Shown here: one piece after another, positions 47,065 through 60,315 of the stretch | How positions within the stretch are numbered: the stretch's first letter is position 1 | Layout: each line of letters opens with the position of its first letter | Source of the DNA: Gammaproteobacteria bacterium | GTDB lineage: Bacteria > Pseudomonadota > Gammaproteobacteria > HK1 | Assembly: GCA_021773645.1 (NCBI GenBank) | Contig: JAJFJU010000026.1 | Span: forward strand, 186,001 to 250,000 | Reading direction: 5' to 3' | DNA: 64,000 nt | The notes under the pieces: generated by a model | Databases searched by the model: none | The model's input: only the letters and a program-made list of their open reading frames with translations | What the model was told of the DNA's origin: nothing | Program-made: the position numbers and the translations under genes

Positions 47065-47141
47065 GGCTACGTAGCTCAGCTGGTTAGAGCGCGGCACTCA
47101 TAATGCTGAGGTCGGTGGTTCGAGTCCACCCGTAGCCACCA
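47065..47141 (+). tRNA. tRNA-Met (anticodon CAT), prophage attachment site
   Basis: Seventy-seven bases with encoded CCA. The acceptor GGCTACG pairs with CGTAGCC, the anticodon arm holds CTCATAA, and the T-arm is GGTGGTTCGAGTCCACC. It resembles elongator tRNA-Met rather than the initiator, since the acceptor begins with a G-C pair. The prophage integrase gene ends seven bases after the CCA, so the attachment core is probably the 3' half of this gene. The tRNA is intact, as expected when the phage restores it. Confidence 0.95.
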
Positions 47142-47147
47142 ACAAAA

Positions 47148-48242
47148 TCAAGCGCTTGCACGAAAATCCCGAACCCTCAGCAAAGTCAGTTCGGGAGTTT
47201 TTCGGGACTCGCCCCCACAAACACGGCCCGCCGCCTCGATCAATTCCCCGATCTCAGGGGCAGAGTAATGGGTCGTGATATCCCCGTTCTTGTGCCCTAA
47301 AAGCACCCTCCTCGTTTCCAACGGCACCCCGACAGCACGCAGCCGCCGGCCGAAGGTGTGTTTCAGATCATGTACCCGGAGAGAAGGCAGGCCCGATTTA
47401 ATGCGCGCCCGCTTCCAAGCCGAGTTGTAGATCCGTCCTACACGTGCCCCCCGGAAGGTAAAGACATACTCAGGATGGCCACCACGTAGCTCATTAACCA
47501 CCGAGAGAGCCACACGGTTAAGCACCACCAGCCGATCCTCACCATTCTTTACCCTACCCCCGGGGACGATGAACACGGACGTGGAAAGCTCAGGAACGCG
47601 AACCTCCCAATCCCACCGCAGCCCGCAAACCTCCTCCTGCCGAGTACCCGTGTTCACACAGAACAAGGCCATCCGCTGGAGATGAGCCGGGAGCTTAGCG
47701 AGTAACCGCTTCTCCTCTTTCCGGCTGATCGGGTAAGGCTTCCGAGCATCCCCCCAATCCACCATCTGGATCATAGGGGGAGTCACCAGCCAGGTAAGGC
47801 CCGCCTCATCCCGCCACAGCCTAGATGCCAGATTAAGCACCCTCCGAACCACAGCAAGCGTGCGATTAACCGTCGCCGACCGAACGCCATCCCGACGCCG
47901 GGACTCAACAAACGGCTGGAGGGTTCCCATATGCACCTGGTCCAAAGGCAACGCCCCGATAAACGAATCGACGCAATCAAGATCCTGCGCATCCCGAGAC
48001 AGGCTCCGCTTAGTGCCTTCCACTAGGTACTTCGTAGCAGCCAGGCGAAAGGATCGCCTAGGCCGTTCACCGTACAACTCCGACCGCCGTATCGCCTCTA
48101 TGCGGTGGGAGAGGTACGCTTCCGCTTCCTCCCGGTCAGACGTTCGACAACTTTCACAAAGTCGCCTTCCCCGGATTCTTTTATCGATGTGCCAGACTTC
48201 GCCGACCTTGACGAGACCTGGCGTTTTCCTACTTCGCCCCAT
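47148..48242 (-). CDS. int: Phage tyrosine integrase
   Basis: Site-specific recombinase, 364 residues. Catalytic residues by position: Arg201 (TGTRQEEVCGLRW), Lys232, box II HDLKH at 291-295, His317 (LLGHKNG) and Tyr326 (THYS). The second catalytic Arg of the usual HxxR is Lys294 here. AGGAGG lies six bases before ATG 48242, inside the overlapping xis gene. It is last in the leftward early operon and abuts tRNA-Met, as expected for the attachment side. Confidence 0.93.
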   Translation of the reverse strand: MGRSRKTPGLVKVGEVWHIDKRIRGRRLCESCRTSDREEAEAYLSHRIEAIRRSELYGERPRRSFRLAATKYLVEGTKRSLSRDAQDLDCVDSFIGALPLDQVHMGTLQPFVESRRRDGVRSATVNRTLAVVRRVLNLASRLWRDEAGLTWLVTPPMIQMVDWGDARKPYPISRKEEKRLLAKLPAHLQRMALFCVNTGTRQEEVCGLRWDWEVRVPELSTSVFIVPGGRVKNGEDRLVVLNRVALSVVNELRGGHPEYVFTFRGARVGRIYNSAWKRARIKSGLPSLRVHDLKHTFGRRLRAVGVPLETRRVLLGHKNGDITTHYSAPEIGELIEAAGRVCGGESRKTPELTLLRVRDFRASA

Positions 48243-48462: not shown

Positions 48463-49083
48463 CTAGCCCCGCCCCCCTTCATCCAGTTCAGCCAACTGGG
48501 TGCCAGTAAGATTTTTCAGGCGGTCGATAACTTCATCGACAGCCTTCCTCGTTGCCTCCATTCGCCGGGAACTAGCTTGTAGATCCCGAAGCAGCCCAAC
48601 GAGATGCGCCAGATCAAGAAACGACACCACCATCGGGAGTTTCCGAAACCCCATCTGCTTGACCATGGCATTCAGCATCCGGTACTTGTCATCGTCACCC
48701 AGGACGGCCCTGGGTTCGGCGGGCTTGGGGGCAGGCAGAGCCTTGGCCTTACGCAGCCCCATGAGCTCTGCCTCGCAAGCGATGAAGTAGCGGCGGGCCT
48801 TATCTCCCATGGGGCAGTTCTCAGCCATAGCCAGCATCTTGGCCATATCCAAAGTGAGCCAATACTCCTTGCGAGGCCGGCCGCCTGGGGTTTTTAATAA
48901 AGTTATTAAAAAGTCTTCGCCTGCCAGAAACCGCCACTTGTGGACACGATTACGAATCCAGCTAGTGAAGTGTTGTTTTGATTGCAGGAAACCGTGAAGA
49001 GTCCGGGCGGACACCACGCGAGTGGGAACACCAGCGATGAATCGTTGCCGGAACGGGATGAGTCTGTTTTGTTTGCGTGTCAT
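48463..49083 (-). CDS. AntA/AntB-type phage antirepressor
   Basis: A 206-residue protein with an AntA/AntB N-terminal domain (about 15-110: VVSARTLHGFLQSKQHFTSWIRNRV, then FLITLLKTPGGRPRKEYWLTLDMAKMLAM). In phages P1/P7 this family binds and inactivates the lysogenic repressor. The C-terminal part (about 150-200) is helical and of unknown role. ATG 49083 was chosen as the domain start; the same frame is open upstream through the leader to 49452. The ATG overlaps the stop of a leader frame (ATGA), implying coupled translation, and a C4-like RNA lies in the leader. Confidence 0.85.
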   Translation of the reverse strand: MTRKQNRLIPFRQRFIAGVPTRVVSARTLHGFLQSKQHFTSWIRNRVHKWRFLAGEDFLITLLKTPGGRPRKEYWLTLDMAKMLAMAENCPMGDKARRYFIACEAELMGLRKAKALPAPKPAEPRAVLGDDDKYRMLNAMVKQMGFRKLPMVVSFLDLAHLVGLLRDLQASSRRMEATRKAVDEVIDRLKNLTGTQLAELDEGGRG

Positions 49084-49231
49084 GGCAGAGGCCTCGGTAA
49101 CAGTTGAGAGACCCACCACCGCCGGTGCAAATCGGCAAAAGGTGGCAGGACGAAACAGGTTTGCACTACCGCACCGAGGAGCGGCCACCCGAAGGTGCCT
49201 GAATCGCCCCGCCATAAAAAACTGCGGGCAT
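49084..49231 (-). promoter_or_regulatory. Antirepressor leader with antisense target sites
   Basis: Leader between the C4-like RNA and the antirepressor. On the minus strand AGGCACC (49194-49200) and GTGCAAA (49160-49166) are exact complements of two elements in the upstream C4-like RNA, in the correct antiparallel order. A frame ending at 49080 overlaps the antirepressor ATG. Within it GTG 49166 could start a 28-residue Icd-like leader peptide. Confidence 0.55.
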
Positions 49232-49300
49232 AAAAAAAGGCACCACATCGGATGAGCGCCTTGACGCTCGGTTTGCGGGGTGCAAATCCCGGCCGCTGCT
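49232..49300 (-). ncRNA. C4-like antisense RNA
   Basis: Two hairpins in series on the minus strand: CGGG-ATTTGCAC-CCCG (49276-49291), with an antisense element in the loop, and GAGCG-TCAAGG-CGCTC (49254-49269). A single-stranded GGTGCCT (49238-49244) and seven T (49232-49238 region) follow. The two antisense elements match target sites 40 and 110 bases downstream. Position before an antA-type gene is exactly that of C4 RNA in P1/P7 and many prophages. Ends are approximate. Confidence 0.65.
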
Positions 49301-49357
49301 GCTGCAACGACGGGCACAGAATAAGCTATCTTTTCCACCGACTGCAACTCCCCCACC

Positions 49358-55961: not shown

Positions 55962-56042
55962 GTGGGTGGAGCGTCCAGATGTGGATTACATTATAAACAC
56001 CGGGTTTATATAATGTCCACACCTTGTTTACGTTCCACCCAC
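55962..56042. repeat. 81-bp nested inverted repeat around the left operator
   Basis: Outer arms GTGGGTGGAGCG (55962-55973) and CGTTCCACCCAC (56031-56042) match at 11 of 12 positions. Inside them GTGGA (55981-55985) pairs with TCCAC (56016-56020), and the operator dyad is in the centre. The three levels share one centre near 56001. The purpose is unknown. Confidence 0.6.
55990..56019 (-). promoter_or_regulatory. Left early promoter and operator (PL/OL)
   Basis: Minus strand: -35 TGGACA (56014-56019), 18-base spacer, -10 TATAAT (55990-55995). The operator TATAAAC-ACCGG-GTTTATA (55992-56010), a perfect 7-bp dyad identical in design to those beside the repressor gene, covers the -10 and spacer. 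Repressor bound here would block the leftward operon. Confidence 0.8.
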
Positions 56043-56064
56043 AAAAAAGCCCGCTGGGCGGGCT
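56043..56064 (-). terminator. Leftward terminator before the left operator
   Basis: Stem AGCCCGC (56048-56054), loop TGG, stem GCGGGCT (56058-56064). Read leftward it ends in six T. It would stop leftward transcription from the accessory region before it enters the early operon. Confidence 0.7.
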
Positions 56065-56077
56065 GGGGTCTTTATCT

Positions 56078-56101
56078 GGACTATGCTTTTGGCTATAGTC
56101 C
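56078..56101. promoter_or_regulatory. Inverted repeat before the antitoxin gene
   Basis: GGACTAT (56078-56084) and ATAGTCC (56095-56101), a perfect 7-bp dyad with a 10-base spacer, 43 bases before the DUF4065 gene. Autoregulation of toxin-antitoxin operons makes this a candidate operator. A matching promoter is not clear. Confidence 0.4.
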
Positions 56102-56144
56102 CCGGGCGGTTAGGTATTGGATAGCTGCCCGCAAGGAGGGCGCC

Positions 56145-56612
56145 ATGACGGCCAAAGTCTCAGCGATTGAAGTAGCCAATAGGTTTTTGTCTCAGGCACA
56201 CGAGCACGGTGATCAGTTAAGCAACCTCAAGCTCCAGAAGCTGCTGTATTACGCGCACGCTTGGTATCTGGTGCTAAACGAGGACCAGCCACTTTTCGAT
56301 GATCGGATCGAGGCGTGGGTTCACGGCCCTGTCGTTCCCAACGTTTATCATGAGTTCAAGCAGTATGGCTGGCAGCCCATCATGGTTGAGCCGGATAAAA
56401 ACCCCTTGCCCAAAGATATTTCCACTCATCTGAAGGATATATGGGAAGTCTTTTCCAGTTACTCGGCATTTGATCTGGAGCGCATGACGCACCAAGAAGC
56501 CCCTTGGATAAATGCTCGTGGCGATCTTGAAATAGACGAGCCATCCAGCAACGCGATTTCTAATAGCGATATGGCCACCTATTATCGGCAGCTTTGCTCC
56601 CAGGAAAACTAA
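56145..56612 (+). CDS. Panacea (DUF4065/SocA-like) antitoxin
   Basis: A 155-residue protein of the Panacea domain family (also GepA/SocA): AIEVANRFLSQAHEHGDQLSNLKLQKLLYYAHAWYL near the start (residues 6-41), AWVHGPVVPNVYHEFKQYG, and the C-terminal LERMTHQEAPW. Family members neutralise diverse toxins in two-gene modules. AAGGAGGG lies just before ATG 56145. The toxin candidate starts 12 bases after its stop. It reads opposite to the left operon and lies where lambdoid phages carry exclusion genes. Confidence 0.85.
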   Translation: MTAKVSAIEVANRFLSQAHEHGDQLSNLKLQKLLYYAHAWYLVLNEDQPLFDDRIEAWVHGPVVPNVYHEFKQYGWQPIMVEPDKNPLPKDISTHLKDIWEVFSSYSAFDLERMTHQEAPWINARGDLEIDEPSSNAISNSDMATYYRQLCSQEN

Positions 56613-58902: not shown

Positions 58903-59610
58903 CTACTCCGGCATATAGCTCCCAATCACGACCCCGACAATCTCGCAATCTCCATCACACTCGATAATCGGGTATTGCGGGTTCAGGGGGCGCAGGAAGC
59001 GCTTTCCAGCGTCCTCGACGTAGACCTTGAACGTGGCCTCATCGCCACGCAGCCGAGCCACTACGCGCGAGCCATTAACCGCCTCGCGGTCAGGGTCCAC
59101 GAAGATAATGATCCCTTCCGGGTAAGAGCGCGGGCCATGGGGGTTCGTCATAGAGTCGCCCTGCACTCTAAGCCCAAAAGCATGCGGGCCATGGGTGTCC
59201 GGACAGGGAAGCCATTTCTCGGCATCCCCCGGCTCAAGGTGGTCACATATCTGAGACCACTCTCCGGCCTGTACCCAGGAGATTAAAGGGATTTCGCCTT
59301 TAATTGAGGGGGCATGGGAGATGTTGCTGGACGCCTCATCCTGGCCCGCCTCGCCAATGTCATAGGGCATGCGGAGCCGTGCCTGTACCCGTTGGAGACG
59401 CATAGGGCCTTTGCCGGACATCAACCAATCCGTTGACACGCCAAGCGCGGACGCCACCGCAGGGACCCTGTCGCCAGGGATATTCCCTCGTGTTTTCCAG
59501 TTGTTTACATCCTGAGGCTTAACCCCGACAGCCCTCGCTAACGAGGCGTAACTAATCCTCGCCTCTTTTCTGGCCTCCTCCATTCGTTCTATGCGTTCAC
59601 TCATAAACAT
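58903..59610 (-). CDS. LexA-like phage repressor (CI type)
   Basis: Lysogenic repressor, 235 residues from ATG 59610. The N-terminal helix-turn-helix (about 20-45: ISYASLARAVGVKPQDVNNWKTRG) is followed by an S24 self-cleavage domain with the Ala-Gly site in VQAGEW (Ala115-Gly116), catalytic Ser153 in VQGDSM and Lys195 in ATFKVY. It should be inactivated through RecA after DNA damage. Other possible starts are ATG 59604 and an open frame to 59658. One operator covers its start codon, so it controls its own synthesis. Confidence 0.92.
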   Translation of the reverse strand: MFMSERIERMEEARKEARISYASLARAVGVKPQDVNNWKTRGNIPGDRVPAVASALGVSTDWLMSGKGPMRLQRVQARLRMPYDIGEAGQDEASSNISHAPSIKGEIPLISWVQAGEWSQICDHLEPGDAEKWLPCPDTHGPHAFGLRVQGDSMTNPHGPRSYPEGIIIFVDPDREAVNGSRVVARLRGDEATFKVYVEDAGKRFLRPLNPQYPIIECDGDCEIVGVVIGSYMPE

Positions 59611-59620
59611 AGAGTTTATA
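59602..59620. promoter_or_regulatory. Operator at the repressor start
   Basis: ATAAAC-ATAGA-GTTTAT (59603-59619), a perfect 6-bp dyad of the same design as the left operator. It covers the repressor start codon and its -10-like TATAAA (minus, 59615-59620). That -10 would place the transcript start at or beside the ATG at 59610. Confidence 0.75.
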
Positions 59621-59638
59621 GGCGGACGGTGGATGTTC

Positions 59639-59657
59639 AATAAACGCGTTGTAGACA
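59639..59657. promoter_or_regulatory. Degenerate middle operator
   Basis: AATAAAC-GCGTT-GTAGACA: the left half matches 6 of 7 positions of TATAAAC, the right half 4 of 7 of GTTTATA. Centres of the three sites are 37 and 21 bases apart. Lower confidence than the flanking two. Confidence 0.45.
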
Positions 59658-59680
59658 TATATACACCTCGTGTTTATAGT
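59652..59680 (+). promoter_or_regulatory. Right early promoter and operator (PR/OR)
   Basis: -35 TAGACA (59652-59657), 17-base spacer, -10 TATAGT (59675-59680). The operator TATACAC-CTCGT-GTTTATA (59660-59678) covers spacer and -10. The expected start of transcription, six to seven bases after the -10, coincides with the ATG at 59687, so the mRNA would be leaderless. Confidence 0.75.
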
Positions 59681-59686
59681 TGGCGC

Positions 59687-59914
59687 ATGGACGCTCTAAA
59701 CGAAGCAATAAAATCACTTGGCTCCCAAGCCGCTCTCGCAAAAGCCATGGGGGTCACCCCAATGGCCGTCTCTCAATGGAAATCCAGGGGCGTTCCCGCT
59801 GAGCGCGTACTCGCCCTTGAGGCAGCTACTGGCGGGCGAGTCCTACGGCACGAGATCCGACCTGACATCTACCCGCCTCCAGATCACCAGCACCCCCAAG
59901 CGGCTACGGCATGA
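59687..59914 (+). CDS. YdaS/Cro-type early regulator
   Basis: A 75-residue helix-turn-helix protein: MDALNEAIKSLGSQAALAKAMGVTPMAVSQWKSRGVP, then AERVLALEAATGGRVLRHEIRPDIYPPP, the YdaS-type Cro substitute that shuts off the repressor promoter. It is the first gene after the right promoter and has no ribosome site, in line with a leaderless message. The next gene carries a second copy of this whole domain, and overlaps it by four bases. Confidence 0.87.
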   Translation: MDALNEAIKSLGSQAALAKAMGVTPMAVSQWKSRGVPAERVLALEAATGGRVLRHEIRPDIYPPPDHQHPQAATA

Positions 59915-60315
59915 ACAAGAACCAAGCCGCCGATCTGTTCGGCAACAGGACAAAGCTGGCCGCCGCGTTAGGCATAACAAAGTCCGCCATATCCCAATGG
60001 CCCGAAGAGCTAACACAAGAGCAGGTAGATCGGGTTATCGGCGCAGCAGTACGCCTCAGCGTGTTTGATATCAACAAATACATCCCCTTATTCGCTCTAA
60101 ATAACGCAATAAGGTTGGTTGGTTCCCAAACCGCTATGGCAAATATTATCGGCGTCGCCCCCATGGCCGTATACCAATGGAGAACCAAGGGCCTCCCCGC
60201 CGAACGAGTCCTCGCCGTTGAGGCGGCCACCAGAGGAAGGGTATCCAGGTATGAACTCAGGCCTGACATTTACCCGCCACCAGGCCACTTCCAGCATCTA
60301 GCAACATACGCATGA
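59911..60315 (+). CDS. Cro-YdaS fusion regulator
   Basis: A 134-residue protein with two helix-turn-helix modules. The N-terminal half (1-50: AADLFGNRTKLAAALGITKSAISQWPEEL) is Cro-like; the C-terminal half (about 60-134) repeats the previous gene, including VGSQTAMANIIGVAPMAVYQW, GLPAERVLAVEAATRGRVSRYELRPDIYPPP and the same tail. Translation is coupled to the previous gene (ATGA). A duplication followed by fusion explains it. The function is presumably repression in the early switch, with two recognition surfaces. Confidence 0.82.
   Translation: MNKNQAADLFGNRTKLAAALGITKSAISQWPEELTQEQVDRVIGAAVRLSVFDINKYIPLFALNNAIRLVGSQTAMANIIGVAPMAVYQWRTKGLPAERVLAVEAATRGRVSRYELRPDIYPPPGHFQHLATYA

Follow-up and report, generated by a model that had tools for sequence, protein, structure and literature searches.

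The locus described here raises the question of whether an antirepressor gene of a gammaproteobacterial prophage is controlled by an antisense RNA of the C4 type and, if so, whether control is exerted through a leader gene, as in phage P1, or on the antirepressor gene itself. A sequence-only reading of the window (the whole 64,000-nucleotide stretch of DNA analysed) had proposed that two antisense elements control an AntA gene, preceded by a leader frame with a possibly new product, and a match to the Rfam C4 model had been set beforehand as the test of this proposal. On the evidence given below the locus is, with a probability of roughly 0.88, a C4-type riboregulator acting directly on antA.

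The Rfam model RF01695 was matched over its full length (model positions 1-87) with 57.8 bits against a gathering score of 45, a score which we grade as moderate. The minimum free energy fold of the matching sequence (-41.6 kcal/mol, z-score -5.1 against shuffled sequences) has three stems, with the closing stem and the tetraloop hairpin that the family requires, and a GG motif is found in the sequence at the expected RNase P cut place. The product of the downstream gene was confirmed as an AntA antirepressor by PF08346 (E 1.4e-20, 74.1 bits against a gathering score of 27) and by PHROG 5817, anti-repressor Ant (E 3e-30). That the window carries a genuine relative of C4, i.e. a known type of switch whose function here is predicted, is well supported. 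It is a further case of a known family, and the match confirms a candidate C4 immunity RNA in a gammaproteobacterial genus of which little is known.

Table 1. Elements of the C4-antA locus and other features discussed in the text. Positions are those of the window, unless preceded by the name of another locus.
Feature	Position	Strand	Remarks
Promoter-like pair TTGCAG - 18 nt - TATTCT	49318..49347	-	weak; adjoins a1 on its upstream side; putative, from position
c4-a1b1 element, hairpin with a1 site	49272..49324	-	Rfam RF03163, 36.4 bits, cut-off 46.7, E 9.8e-8
isrK match	49233-49311	-	Rfam RF01394, 34.3 bits, cut-off 50, E 7e-6
a1 site TTTGCAC	49280..49286	-	complementary to a'
b1 site ACCGAG	49267..49272	-	complementary to b'
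Terminator-like hairpin and T run	49232..49262	-	fold -9.1 kcal/mol
C4 antisense RNA	49138..49219	-	Rfam RF01695, 57.8 bits, cut-off 45
Predicted mature C4	49141-49213	-	73 nt, 5' end GGC; 77 nt in P1
b' antisense element CCTCGGT	49173..49179	-	within second C4 hairpin
a' antisense element GTGCAAA	49160..49166	-	within C4 junction
a2 target TTTGCAC	49125..49131	-	complementary to a'
b2 target ACCGAGG	49092..49098	-	includes antA Shine-Dalgarno GAGG, 8 nt 5' of ATG
antA antirepressor gene	48463..49083	-	206 aa; first cistron past C4
Prophage integrase	47148..48242	-	PF00589, PHROG 1; adjoins tRNA-Met 47065-47141
CI/LexA-type S24 peptidase repressor	58903..59658	-	PF00717 E 7.7e-26, Phage_CI_repr E 1.2e-6
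sRNA-Xcc1	L069 300-388 and 837-922; L074-L103

The elements of the locus (Table 1) follow each other on the minus strand in the order promoter-like pair, a1, b1, terminator-like hairpin, C4, a2, b2 and antA. Downstream of C4, the sites a2 and b2 match its antisense elements a' and b' exactly over 7+7 nt and in antiparallel order; upstream, a1 and b1 do so over 7+6 nt, and ATTTGCAC is present twice on the minus strand (49280-49287 and 49125-49132). When the 55 bases past C4 were shuffled preserving dinucleotides, both downstream sites, of at least 7 nt each and in antiparallel order, reappeared in 2 of 20,000 shuffles. For the upstream a1/b1 pair the count was 16 of 20,000. In a comparison of 53 downstream regions (those of the window, P1 and the remaining C4 loci), 7+7 nt of match to the window C4 were found in the region belonging to it and in no other, and similarly only its own upstream region offers 7+6 nt. 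The Shine-Dalgarno sequence of antA is located inside b2, so that C4 should mask the ribosome-binding site of the gene. Raw RNA duplex energy was dropped as a measure of specificity, the own downstream target ranking only 17th of 53, an effect, presumably, of the dominance of G+C-rich targets; it was replaced by exact-match lengths and permutations.

All sequences quoted in the sequence-only reading are present on the minus strand at the places given, with their roles inverted. GTGCAAA (49160-49166), taken there for a target, is the antisense element a' of C4 itself, and its pairing with TTTGCAC is real and conserved across loci. AGGCACC (49194-49200), the other supposed target, forms the 5' arm of the internal tetraloop hairpin of C4, and GGTGCCT (49238-49244), read as an antisense element, the 3' arm of the terminator-like hairpin upstream. 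The element b', with its partners b2 and b1, and the second a-site, a2, had been missed. The idea that C4 logic controls the AntA gene thus holds as to the C4 match and the gene downstream, with the targets moved to a2 and b2, at the antA ribosome-binding site.

In order to compare these pairings among C4 loci, 369 genomes drawn from the class were searched, 23 of which contained C4, and 53 loci, including their flanks and with P1 added, were examined. For each pairing the exact matches between every C4 and its own sites were summed and set against 10,000 permutations in which partners were swapped. The observed sums exceeded the permutation maximum in all cases: 343 against 260 for a'-a2, 382 against 275 for b'-b2, 408 against 309 for a'-a1 and 408 against 325 for b'-b1. 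Kinship among the loci raises the permuted values too, and the test therefore errs on the safe side. The complementarity between GGTGCCT and AGGCACC is not conserved: over all C4 loci it was no better than with permuted partners (mean 4.13 nt for own pairs, 4.17 for permuted ones, 3388 of 5000 permutations being as good), and for this reason is best read as chance.

The most telling comparison is that with the locus of a sister species (L004), whose leader DNA is 79% identical over 218 bases. There a1, a' and a2 read TTGGAAC, GTTCCAA and TTGGAAC, against TTTGCAC, GTGCAAA and TTTGCAC in the window. This coordinated change shows that the antisense letters, besides the fold, are under selection. 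It also bears on the view that C4 is a decayed remnant and antA free of its control. The locus is a single one in a draft genome, and the right end of the prophage was not found on the contig, as might be expected of a relic; both antisense elements, however, match both of their sites exactly, the sister species changed them together and antA is intact, so that decay is extremely improbable.

C4 ends 54 nt before the antA ATG, compared with 46 nt between C4 and icd in P1; in the 38 loci with a recognisable b2 this distance ranges from 40 to 58 nt (median 51), with a median of 8 nt from b2 to the ATG, the value also found for antA. In P1, b2 lies about 10 nt before icd, which ant follows with a 4-base overlap. 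The first start codon past b2 in the window is the antA ATG, and no Icd-like leader cistron of the P1 type was found there between C4 and the antirepressor gene. As judged by position, the antA ATG is where P1 has icd, with no predicted leader gene between C4 and antA, and the new leader product that had been suggested finds no support.

In a P1-like arrangement in two steps, C4 would block a leader ORF whose translation is coupled to that of antA through the sequence ATGA (49080-49083). The frame in question is indeed open from 49307 to 49080, and its TGA overlaps the antA ATG much as icd and ant1 overlap in P1. It crosses C4, however, and between C4 and antA offers only a TTG, inside a2, which no Shine-Dalgarno-like sequence precedes; in L004 the equivalent frame has no stop at that place and continues into the next gene. 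In addition, antA has its own Shine-Dalgarno sequence in b2, at the standard distance, and antirepressors of several families directly follow C4 as the first cistron in other loci: AntA in L011, Rha in L016 and L047a, Bro-N in L020, L025, L041 and L048, and P22_AR_N in L047b. The leader ORF, open but neither conserved in the sister species nor endowed with a usable start signal, was rejected, and control in two steps is very unlikely. Direct control of an antirepressor by C4 would, on these sequences, be common. Nor is the arrangement new, since C4 is found about 50 nt before the ATG of an AntA-type gene in the Mannheimia phage vB_MhS_587AP2 and in the Escherichia phage phiv142-3. These phages share the layout with the window locus, unlike its DNA: a search of the phage collection with the leader DNA revealed no similarity, and a protein search of viral contigs with AntA gave no confirmed relatives. 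A simpler model is suggested, in which C4 can sit directly on the antirepressor gene and a leader gene such as that of P1 is dispensable.

The region upstream of C4 resembles two further Rfam families, c4-a1b1 and isrK. Both matches stay below their gathering scores in the window, with E-values (about 1e-7 and 7e-6) which come from a 401-base search, while in the sister locus L004 they reach 53.6 and 50.4 bits. By sequence a1, b1 and the terminator-like hairpin would form an isrK-like short RNA, the isrK match being below cut-off. The hairpin was not listed by the terminator scan, for which its loop is probably too long. A promoter-consensus scan returned nothing at the C4-antA locus; at the position of the promoter-like pair L004 has TTGCAG and TATGCT, and the annotated C4 promoter of P1 is found at the equivalent position.

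The presence of the same sites in a1/b1 and a2/b2 could also be explained by a cis-acting attenuator, in which C4 pairs with one or the other set within a single transcript and no free RNA acts in trans. Alternative structures have been shown for the isrK-orf45 transcript of Gifsy-1 (PMC4825925), and some C4 copies elsewhere retain a1/b1 without a2/b2. Against this, the C4 fold is very stable, with a long closing stem; in P1, C4 is an antisense RNA released by processing, and in RNA-seq its Acinetobacter homologues are more abundant than expected from their precursor (PMC5320573). Regulation purely in cis is accordingly considered unlikely.

The preferred reading, a C4 RNA acting directly on antA, can be set out as follows. 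A leftward transcript, starting upstream of 49311, would contain a1/b1, a partial terminator, C4, a2/b2 and antA. RNase P would excise C4 (about 73 nt) at the GG of GGCGGGG, as in P1 and P7, where excision takes place at a GG motif, b' partly covers ribosome-binding sites and a' confers specificity (PMC5320573). In the lysogen, pairing of a' and b' with a2 and b2 would mask the antA Shine-Dalgarno sequence and prevent the synthesis of AntA, and this repression would help the prophage to stay dormant. Titration of C4 would allow AntA to be translated and to inactivate a CI-like S24 repressor. The titrating RNA could be supplied by a phage whose C4 differs, or could be a short upstream a1b1 RNA as in the IsrK system of Gifsy-1, where the short terminated IsrK RNA leads, in trans, to translation of the read-through antirepressor transcript (PMC4825925). 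Acting as a decoy, the a1b1-terminator RNA of the window could similarly relieve repression, with Rfam scores in that region below cut-off.

Compared with known systems, the window locus shares with P1/P7 C4 the fold, the order a1, b1, C4, a2, b2, the position of b2 over a ribosome-binding site and the control, here predicted, of an antirepressor locus. It differs in having antA as the first cistron after b2, where P1 has icd and then ant, in its antisense letters, in the predicted length of C4 (73 against 77 nt) and in the cut site (GGC against GGT). With c4-a1b1 it shares a hairpin upstream of C4 whose a1 and b1 sites are complementary to that RNA. As in the IsrK-orf45-anrP region of Gifsy-1 (PMC4825925), a short terminated RNA upstream, a read-through transcript and a downstream antirepressor gene are predicted in the window, which unlike Gifsy-1 has no orf45-like leader.

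The integrase next to tRNA-Met, RecT, the S24 repressor, a DnaB helicase and, at a greater distance on the contig, a terminase show that the element is a prophage. A search from the vicinity of tRNA-Met over the rest of the contig gave no exact attL/attR repeats of 14 bases or more, and the right end of the element is therefore undefined. The S24 repressor is the presumed target of AntA. Directly upstream of the C4 locus lies a gene for a CsrA-like phage regulator (49358-49543, minus strand, PF02599 E 3.6e-21); control of the leader by CsrA was discarded, the region 49060-49330 containing a single GGA, in the a1 hairpin, and none being found at the antA start. On the plus strand, a SocA/Panacea antitoxin-like gene (55962-56612, PF13274 E 3e-20) is possibly half of a toxin-antitoxin pair, and opposite the S24 repressor are two consecutive genes for small YdaS/Cro-like regulators (59591-60315), the first of which matches both YdaS (E 3e-22) and P22 Cro.

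The genome of the window contains a second C4 (L002, G000:C2:69846-69925), with TTAGTAG and CTACTAA as a1 and a'. Its a2 is unrecognisable, and b2 is kept, lying over the start of another gene, a small one which has no Pfam match and resembles the gene past C4 in L004. The difference in a' between two C4 RNAs of a single genome points to separate immunity groups. Inspection of the sequences indicates that the b' loop of L002, CCTTGGT, could reach the b2 of the window by way of one G-U pair, and orthogonality of the two RNAs would therefore rest mainly on a'. Elsewhere, two genomes (G288 and G380) contain up to ten C4 copies each (L029, L035-L037, L039, L040, L044-L046, L050-L052 and L054), most of which have 6-11 nt of complementarity to their own a1/b1 and lack a2/b2 matches at the start of the gene downstream.

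In one locus (L033, G093:C13) C4, at 1501-1583, is found directly before a gene for a SymE-type toxin (PF08845, E 7e-13), and its b' matches the SymE start region (GCACAAGGAA). C4 RNAs may thus also be antitoxin RNAs. A related layout was found for sRNA-Xcc1 (RF02221), so far without a known mechanism, for which that of C4 serves as a template. In 30 loci its loop and junction strand match their own upstream and downstream sites, and all four pairings beat each of 10,000 permutations; among the genes downstream are those for SymE toxins, one AntA gene and one KilA-N gene. In integrons, according to a paper of 2025 in which the regulatory mechanism is called divergent (PMC12444791), sRNA-Xcc1 lies upstream of symE; a literature search of limited scope found no paper treating sRNA-Xcc1 and an antirepressor together. 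These sequence matches suggest that sRNA-Xcc1 is a C4-like antisense RNA directed at start sites, possibly the second such family. More generally, we lean towards a reprogrammable antisense module, made up of an a1/b1 decoy hairpin, a terminator, a structured antisense RNA and a2/b2 over a start site, which is not tied to icd-ant, is placed on AntA, Rha, Bro-N, P22_AR_N and SymE genes and extends to sRNA-Xcc1, where the mechanism has apparently gone unrecognised.

As a separate observation, in the Escherichia phage PhiR5_2 sRNA-Xcc1 replaces C4 before two AntA-type genes.
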